Shown here: in pieces, positions 44,032 through 44,262 of the stretch
Layout of the letters: each line of letters begins with the position of its first letter
How positions within the stretch are numbered: position 1 is the stretch's first letter
Source: Desulfatitalea alkaliphila
Lineage (GTDB): Bacteria > Desulfobacterota > Desulfobacteria > Desulfobacterales > Desulfosarcinaceae
Reading direction: 5' to 3'
DNA length: 45,122 bases
Assembly: GCF_022968795.1 (NCBI RefSeq)
Contig: NZ_JALJRB010000036.1
Coordinates: 1 to 45,122 of the forward strand
Notes under the pieces: model-generated
Databases searched by the model: none
The model's input: the letters and a program-made list of their open reading frames with translations, nothing else
Told to the model about the DNA's origin: nothing
Translations under genes and position numbers: made by a program

Positions 44032-44063
44032 ACCCCGGGTGGCATTGCATATCCACCCGGGGT
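44032..44063 (-). terminator. Attenuator terminator (3:4 hairpin)
   Basis: The minus-strand RNA forms CCCCGGGTGG paired with CCACCCGGGG (10 pairs, plus an A-U) around a 10-base loop, followed by TTTTTTATTTTT: a strong intrinsic terminator located before, not after, the coding region. The 5' arm GGTGGAT (44051-44057) can instead pair with ATCCACC at 44094-44100. Confidence 0.85.
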
Positions 44064-44082
44064 CGTCGATTACATTGAAATG

Positions 44083-44169
44083 TTACGCCTCCAGGTGGAT
44101 GCTCCTAAAACCAAAAAAGAAGCATCCGCTGAAAAAGTCATTCCGGAAGACGTTGGTGCCGTTGCTCAT
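44083..44169 (-). CDS. Phe-rich leader peptide (PheL-like)
   Basis: A 28-codon frame (ATG at 44169, TAA at 44083) has Phe at positions 8, 12, 13, 17, 18, 19 and 21: seven of 28 residues, with the core GCFFFGFRS. The start has AAGGA about 12 bases upstream. Phe codons 17-21 lie between two RNA arms, GGATGCT (44121-44127) and AGCATCC (44097-44103), that pair as hairpin 1:2. This is the arrangement of PheL-type leaders: stalling at Phe codons masks arm 1 and frees arm 2 to pair with arm 3 (GGTGGAT), preventing the terminator. It is too short for standard gene finders. Confidence 0.85.
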   Translation of the reverse strand: MSNGTNVFRNDFFSGCFFFGFRSIHLEA

Positions 44170-44232
44170 GATTGGGCCGTTTCCTTGCCGGCATTCATGT
44201 GTGACATCCATCAACTGCGCTTGATGTCATAT

Positions 44233-44262
44233 TTAATACATCAGCCGGAGCCGTTTTGTCAA
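44233..44262 (-). promoter_or_regulatory. Promoter of the phe leader
   Basis: On the minus strand TTGACA (44257-44262) is followed after 18 bases by TATTAA (44233-44238). Transcription would start near 44226, about 57 bases before the leader peptide ATG, and read through the attenuator into the fusion gene. Confidence 0.6.

Follow-up and report, generated by a model that had tools for sequence, protein, structure and literature searches.

A conserved, putative Phe-responsive transcription attenuator, probably of six-segment type, ahead of a DAHP synthase-prephenate dehydratase gene in Desulfatitalea alkaliphila

The element lies on the minus strand of the 45,122-nucleotide stretch of Desulfatitalea alkaliphila DNA that was analyzed (the window), flanked by a DUF3786 gene (44896-44285) and by the structural gene for a 623-amino acid protein (43946-42075), which is preceded by a ribosome-binding site, GGGAGG, assigned by eye (43960-43955). 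In a single frame, this protein contains the Pfam domains DAHP_snth_FXD, DAHP_synth_1 (271 bits), PDT (182.7 bits), and ACT (32.7 bits), in that order and all above the Pfam cut-offs, corresponding to a DAHP synthase with a ferredoxin-like domain, a prephenate dehydratase, and an ACT domain. By its domain content, the product is a predicted bifunctional DAHP synthase-prephenate dehydratase, as the earlier note on this DNA had read it; a chorismate mutase domain was not found in the fusion protein by the domain search. The genome of the window contains one full-length fusion gene and one strong match to the leader described below (86.2 bits), with other matches at E 0.045 or worse. A separate chorismate mutase-prephenate dehydratase-ACT protein is encoded elsewhere in the same genome (G000:C16), and thus the fusion is not the sole prephenate dehydratase there.

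A promoter-like pair precedes the leader on the same strand, with a -35 hexamer TTGACA (44262-44257) and a -10-like hexamer TATTAA (44238-44233) separated by 18 nucleotides. As a raw count, 116 of 127 relatives have TTGAC no more than 130 nucleotides ahead of the leader segment, and a promoter-like pair with at least 10 of 12 matches occurs upstream in 47 of 124 regions of relatives, compared to 5% of shuffles. A simple promoter and terminator scan of the window, which applies fixed rules, called neither this promoter nor the first terminator hairpin (T1, below); the promoter escaped because the last base of TATTAA is not T. Downstream of the promoter is a 28-codon leader peptide reading frame (MSNGTNVFRNDFFSGCFFFGFRSIHLEA; stop codon TAA; 44169-44083, minus strand), and homologous peptides are encoded ahead of the fusion genes of relatives. 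Seven of the 28 codons specify Phe (positions 8, 12, 13, 17, 18, 19, and 21). The putative control codons are Phe17, 18, 19, and 21 (44121-44107, minus strand), and in relatives Phe is dominant in the stretch of codons that begins at the end of arm 1 and continues through the loop.

The leader RNA contains six segments on the minus strand, numbered strands 1 to 6 from the 5' end. Strand 1 (GGATGCTTC; 44127-44119) can form 9 base pairs with positions 44105-44097 of strand 2 (44105-44091), and positions 44100-44091 of strand 2 can instead form 10 base pairs with 44060-44051 of strand 3 (CCCCGGGTGGAT; 44062-44051), which takes part in the conserved pairings 2:3 and 3:4. Strand 4 (TGCCACCCGGGG; 44044-44033) is the 3' arm of hairpin 3:4, the T1 terminator (stem 44064-44031; -24.4 kcal/mol), which is followed by TTTTTTATTTTT, with the U-run at 44032-44021. 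The promoter, the seven-Phe leader with three consecutive Phe codons at positions 17-19, arms 1 to 4, and the strong terminator with its U-run, all of which the earlier note had described, are present at these positions. A second terminator-like hairpin, 5:6 (T2), lies between T1 and the gene (stem 44019-43985; about -22 kcal/mol, ranging from -22.0 to -22.3). Strand 5 (44019-44001) comprises its 5' arm and loop, and strand 6 with the U-rich tail spans 43998-43977; the T2 U-run in the window is modest (TTTTCCTTTTC). Both 3:4 and 5:6 in the window are thus backed by U-runs. Strand 4 can alternatively pair with strand 5, through AACCCCG (44018-44012) with CGGGGTT (44037-44031) and through a second contact between GGCA in the T2 loop (44004-44001) and TGCC (44044-44041). 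The fold of the leader RNA has a z score of -3.7, and none of 200 shuffled sequences was equally stable.

Matches to the fusion protein were found in 11 of 30 genomes of the family (E 1e-120) and in 143 of 389 genomes of the order (E 1e-150). Upstream regions were covered for 137 of these 143, with the six left out including matches at a contig edge or partial matches; in three of the 137 (L138-L140), the fusion match spans residues 1-341 only and the open frames are 656-673 amino acids long. A leader profile built from 58 upstream regions matched 127 of the 137 at E 1e-5 or better. Of the ten remaining regions, two were cut by a contig end (L017, L106), one was masked (L058), one retained a remnant (L128), and six had no leader (L075, L079, L080, L084, L133, and L135). 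The six leaderless genes and the remnant imply that the fusion gene can do without the leader. In three of the six, members of family f64 (L075, L079, and L084), the fusion gene seems by eye to lie close behind an unrelated upstream reading frame, which perhaps reflects a switch to another promoter.

The earlier note had proposed a search for a Phe-rich frame in the leaders of homologues, and such a frame is found. Among the 119 sequences that could be placed (8 of the 127 could not), the frame set by arm 1 is open through both arms in 115, and 114 of these 115 complete leaders contain at least four Phe codons. By comparison, the other two frames are open in 77 and 3 of the 119, with at least four Phe codons in 15 and 1, respectively. 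At least one Trp codon occurs in 19 of the 115 frames spanning both arms. The leader stop codon lies a median of 5 nucleotides past arm 2 in the placed relatives, and the peptides have a common core, such as FGRFFFSFRSVHPV. The closest fusion protein among 80 named loci, from Desulfatitalea sp. UBA4791 (71% identity), is preceded by the leader MSTSNTGHIFRFFSGCFFFSFRSIHPAD, and a leader is visible in at least 17 of 21 loci (L175-L194 and L214) assigned to Desulfobacteraceae, Desulfobacterales, Deltaproteobacteria, Syntrophobacteraceae, and the like. We conclude that the element is deeply conserved and does not reflect chance. Short Phe-rich frames and GC-rich terminators are common in general. 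Coincidence without an attenuator is nevertheless extremely improbable, and this explanation is refuted at the level of conservation by the conservation and covariation seen across the order and beyond.

Covariation was examined in an alignment of 73 sequences, thinned to at most 82% identity with any row already retained. Five rows were omitted where an arm could not be placed (L008, L083, L087, L090, and L111); four of these belong to family f30, which is therefore represented by L115 alone. Pairing 1:2 was preserved in 96.8% of cells, with changes on both sides at 4 of 9 pairs; the corresponding values were 98.1% and 3 of 10 for 2:3, 93.0% and 6 of 12 for 3:4, and 95.1-96.5% and 10 of 11 for 5:6. 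For 4:5, 681 of 723 cells were paired (94%). The compensatory changes that the earlier note had expected in its three pairings (1:2, 2:3, and 3:4) are therefore found, at 93-98% of cells paired. Taken together, the three off-state helices (1:2, 3:4, and 5:6) had 95.0% of cells paired and 20 of 32 pairs changed on both sides, and the two on-state helices (2:3 and 4:5) had 96.1% of cells paired and 8 of 20 pairs changed on both sides. For off-state and on-state helices alike, none of 500 shuffles reached the observed percentage paired, the number of double-change cells, or the covariation score; for the on-state helices, the number of double-change pairs was reached by 1 of 500 shuffles and that of further pair types by 3 of 500. 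Related sequences can beat shuffles without any structure, and column slides and the position of the changes provide the better control. When the partner strand was shifted by one column, pairing fell to 56-63%, and shifts of one to three columns gave 24-63%. At column pair 120/173 of the 4:5 helix, C-G occurs in 50 sequences, U-A in 12, U-G in 1, and no pair in 10. In sequences that retain G at column 95, hairpin 3:4 is weakened by a U at column 120 (G-U in 10 sequences), yet the pairing with strand 5 is kept. Thus, mutually exclusive antiterminator and terminator pairings are conserved by covariation.

Energies and U-runs were tabulated for 116 relatives, since nine of the 127 could not be parsed into two hairpins and two (L126 and L043) were misparsed. 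Native strand 4/strand 5 binding averaged -19.5 kcal/mol compared to -17.7 kcal/mol for swaps between families, and 81 of the 116 beat their own swapped mean. A permutation across 14 families with the T2 loop included gave a median p of 0.005 for duplex energy (0.001-0.116 over 60 random picks) and 0.012 for fold energy; when the loop was left out, the medians were 0.034 and 0.062, respectively. Permutation of strands within single families gave no significant coupling (p 0.14-0.57 for duplex energy and 0.05-0.87 for fold energy). Coupling of strands 4 and 5 therefore exists between families and is not seen at short range. A reading of the first permutation test as strong proof of 4:5 was dropped in view of the p of 0.03-0.06 without the loop and the lack of significance within families, and we regard the pairing as likely. 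Part of it is automatic, because a C4/G4 core is common to both hairpins. In L146, L147, and L184, the pairing of strand 4 extends past this core into the T2 arm or loop, and strand 5 including the T2 loop pairs with strand 4 in families f1 and f5. In isolation, 4:5 (-13.5 kcal/mol in the window; mean -17.5 kcal/mol) falls short of the stability of T2 (-22.3 kcal/mol in the window; mean -20.5 kcal/mol), and it follows that timing would have to decide in favor of 4:5.

The window had no Rfam match at the gathering score, and no leader was matched in 20 related or side loci. The sole Rfam match in these 20 loci was a HEARO RNA (RF02033; 96.5 bits; L012:811-1199, minus strand) downstream of the fusion gene of one relative. 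Against RF00514 (His_leader), the window scored 25.0 bits compared to a gathering score of 49, which does not place it in that family, and no Phe leader was among the sub-threshold matches for the window. The trpB motif and His_leader were matched below threshold, and these matches were rejected as homology; they reflect a common hairpin plan.

Attenuators of the PheL/PheM type, known from pheA and pheST of enterobacteria, have four segments and a single terminator; a short leader carries the Phe codons, prephenate dehydratase is under their control, and the enterobacterial pheA product is a chorismate mutase-prephenate dehydratase. The element in the window shares with them the Phe codons in a short leader and the link to prephenate dehydratase; it differs in its gene, which encodes a DAHP synthase-prephenate dehydratase, and in having six segments. 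The assignment of the element to PheL-type attenuation in the earlier note therefore stands for the ribosome-mediated, Phe-codon mechanism, at the strength given below, and is not supported for the four-segment plan. The geometry is not exactly that of PheL, in which a single terminator 3:4 is followed by the gene with no more alternative pairing; here strand 4 alternatively pairs with strand 5, and 5:6, with its conserved U-run, is a second terminator-like hairpin.

The his leader of E. coli and Salmonella, with segments A to F, is the scheme by which the class of six-segment attenuators is defined. The element in the window has the same arrangement of six segments, three off-state hairpins, and two shifted on-state pairings. 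It differs from the his leader in its Phe codons, its sequence, its DAHP synthase gene, and the U-runs behind both the middle and the last hairpin. We conclude that the architecture of the element is the his leader plan rather than that of PheL. On comparative evidence, it would belong to the his-type six-segment class, with 1:2, 3:4, and 5:6 formed in the off state, 2:3 and 4:5 formed in the on state, and 5:6 as the terminator. In the available text of PMC1183508, pheA is listed among attenuated operons, and the extra hairpin between the pause hairpin and the terminator of the his leader is modelled as lowering basal read-through.

Our literature search, whose coverage excluded most subscription journals, returned no description of the Phe element of the window or of a Phe attenuator in Desulfobacterota, and the available main text of PMC2965389 makes no mention of Desulf, pheA, or phenylalan. 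The nearest system found is the uORFC-13-1 motif upstream of aroF, described from Acholeplasma and unidentified environmental sequences only (24 representatives with at least one Phe). According to the available text of PMC8632094, it shares with the window a putative Phe-sensing upstream reading frame and a terminator ahead of a DAHP synthase gene, and it differs in that a six-segment scheme is not part of the text description of the motif there. The ilvBNC attenuator of Corynebacterium glutamicum likewise has terminator, antiterminator, and antiantiterminator hairpins; it differs in responding to branched-chain amino acids, in its occurrence in Actinobacteria, and in the overlap of its terminator and antiterminator (PMC11857589, in the text available).

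Together, these properties suggest that the element is probably a Phe-responsive, ribosome-mediated transcription attenuator of the six-segment type. Phe-responsive attenuation at the fusion gene is very likely, and a relay through 4:5 is likely, judged from comparative evidence. From the parts described above, the following course is predicted for the ribosome, the timing of the pairings, termination at the two sites, and the response to Phe. When Phe is plentiful, the leader ribosome would reach the stop codon and cover strand 2, so that 3:4 forms; in the window, 3:4 with its U-run would then terminate transcription. If polymerase passed 3:4, strand 4 would be engaged, leaving strand 5 free to form 5:6, the second terminator. 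The U-runs behind both hairpins in the window imply an off state with two terminators in series. When Phe is scarce, the ribosome would stall at Phe17-21 on strand 1, and strand 2 would capture strand 3. The freed strand 4 could then capture the emerging strand 5 before strand 6 is made (median lag 18 nucleotides), and with 5:6 unable to form in time, polymerase would read into the DAHP synthase-prephenate dehydratase gene. Dependence of the on state on the order of synthesis is usual in attenuators. A reasonable guess at the benefit of the extra hairpin is that it may lower basal read-through after ribosome release, as modelled for his in the available text of PMC1183508.

The main alternative is a plain four-segment Phe attenuator, working through 1:2, 2:3, and 3:4, with 5:6 serving for back-up termination or as a hairpin that stabilizes the 5' end, without a regulated partner. 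We consider this unlikely. It would be consistent with the strong 3:4 hairpin with a U-run in the window and in most Desulfobacterales-type relatives (98 of 116 have T1 followed by at least 5 U in 8), with the lower stability of 4:5 than of 5:6 and the moderate coupling of strands 4 and 5, and with the poor 5:6 U-run of three members of the window's family (L007, L008, and L009), which are among the 6 of 116 relatives where T2, by script, is followed by fewer than 5 U in 8. However, at least 5 U in 8 follow T2 in 110 of the 116, and a strong downstream terminator that formed constitutively would keep the gene always off. Furthermore, strand 5 pairs with strand 4, including the T2 loop in f1, f5, L146, L147, and L184. 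Relatives in which 3:4 lacks a U-run also mostly keep the U-run of 5:6, which a four-segment switch could not use. Within the order, fewer than 5 U in 8 follow 3:4 in 18 of 116 members, including four of the five counted members of f30; three of these four keep at least 5 U in 8 after 5:6, and L083 has no U-run at either hairpin.

Outside the order, a scan of the phylum with the RNA model gave matches in 40 of 395 genomes, and 27 loci (L144-L170) were inspected. Ten were accepted by eye as DAHP synthase leaders (L144, L146-L149, L151, L152, L155, L159, and L163). L145, from the same genus as L144 and L146, was left out at 66 bits with an arm not found by the pattern, and the rest, apart from the transporter leaders described below, look like chance terminators. 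With five named loci (L184, L185, L187 from Desulforhabdus sp. TSK, L188 from a Syntrophobacteraceae MAG, and L189 from a Desulfomonile tiedjei MAG), these ten make up 15 loci, chosen because a leader was visible rather than at random; L185, L159, L144, and the T2 tail of L152 were read by eye. Hairpin 3:4 lacks a U-run in 11 of the 15 (nine by script and two by eye), or in 10 of 14 distinct sequences, since L151 and L187, taken from two collections, are identical in sequence; a U-run is present after 3:4 in L144. The U-run after 5:6 is kept in all 15 (three by eye). The absence of a 3:4 U-run from 11 of these 15 loci and from four of five f30 members leaves 5:6 as the sole candidate terminator there. 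Where only 5:6 could terminate, the leader ribosome would reach it only through 2:3, 3:4, and 4:5, consistent with the six-segment reading. An extension of that reading, to which we give even odds, is that one translating ribosome controls two serial intrinsic terminators through five exchanges, and that the middle hairpin has gained or lost its U-run by clade.

A second alternative is additional, or even predominant, action in trans by the leader peptide or by the short RNA left after termination in the leader, as is stated for the Sinorhizobium trp leader peptide in the available text of PMC7298713. In its favor, conservation of the core GRFFFSFRSVHP extends to many families. However, the conserved residues of the core are encoded by strands 1 and 2, so that RNA pairing suffices as an explanation, and Arg to Cys changes are accompanied by compensation on the partner strand. 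Action in trans is therefore improbable, well below the four-segment switch.

Several leaders in the collection combine Phe with other aromatic codons. The members of family f30 (L083, L087, L090, L111, and L115) have both Phe and Trp codons (MGRFFCWWWFRSVHPGR, MRGRFFFWWFRSVHPGG), which suggests a joint Phe/Trp signal. Outside the order, Phe codons occur together with Trp and Tyr codons in the leaders of L144 and L146 (MYLNARSTYTDFWRFYFRSVYPVG and MQTDRRPTNYYFWRFYFRSVYPVA), both from genus g151. In six other loci of the phylum (L150, L160, L162, L164, L166, and L170), Phe-rich leaders (for example, ending in SSFFFFFG) have matching arms and a terminator by eye, and the gene behind them looks like that of a periplasmic binding protein (Peripla_BP_6, tested for L162 only). 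As read from these sequences, an amino-acid transporter may be subject to Phe attenuation in other parts of the phylum.

The fusion and the leader do not travel together everywhere, and this idea was rejected. DAHP synthase-prephenate dehydratase fusions are common in Spirochaetota (L195-L246; 44-52% identity). A run of at least three aromatic codons with a terminator was found upstream in none of 44 of these loci (two others, L233 and L239, were left out), some of which had less than 330 nucleotides of upstream sequence. In the 22 of the 44 that were searched with the RNA model, it found nothing upstream; L215 gave a weak match (E 0.66) at the far end of the gene.

The stand-alone DAHP synthase gene of the window's genome (G000:C1) is preceded by a Trp-rich leader (MGFQKVAARCFSNWWWCACQRPWMPAG) and a terminator. 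At the stand-alone DAHP synthase loci of relatives (L255-L275), a short upstream reading frame with at least two Trp codons occurs in 19 of 21, as a raw count, and several of these frames have a common core, such as WWRFALWRRLPTG. A Trp-rich leader at the second DAHP synthase gene suggests that RNA tunes every isozyme of the entry step to its particular end product, and each DAHP synthase isozyme may respond to an amino acid of its own.

These results place a well-conserved and checkable candidate Phe attenuator in Desulfobacterota, joined to an enzyme that combines the first step of the aromatic pathway with a late step of the Phe branch. The six-segment plan, familiar from his, would here serve another amino acid. 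Because the U-run of the middle hairpin varies naturally, the role of the extra exchange can be tested. If one ribosome does control both terminators in series, then this lineage would display the intermediate stages that connect a relay with a single terminator to a switch with tandem terminators.
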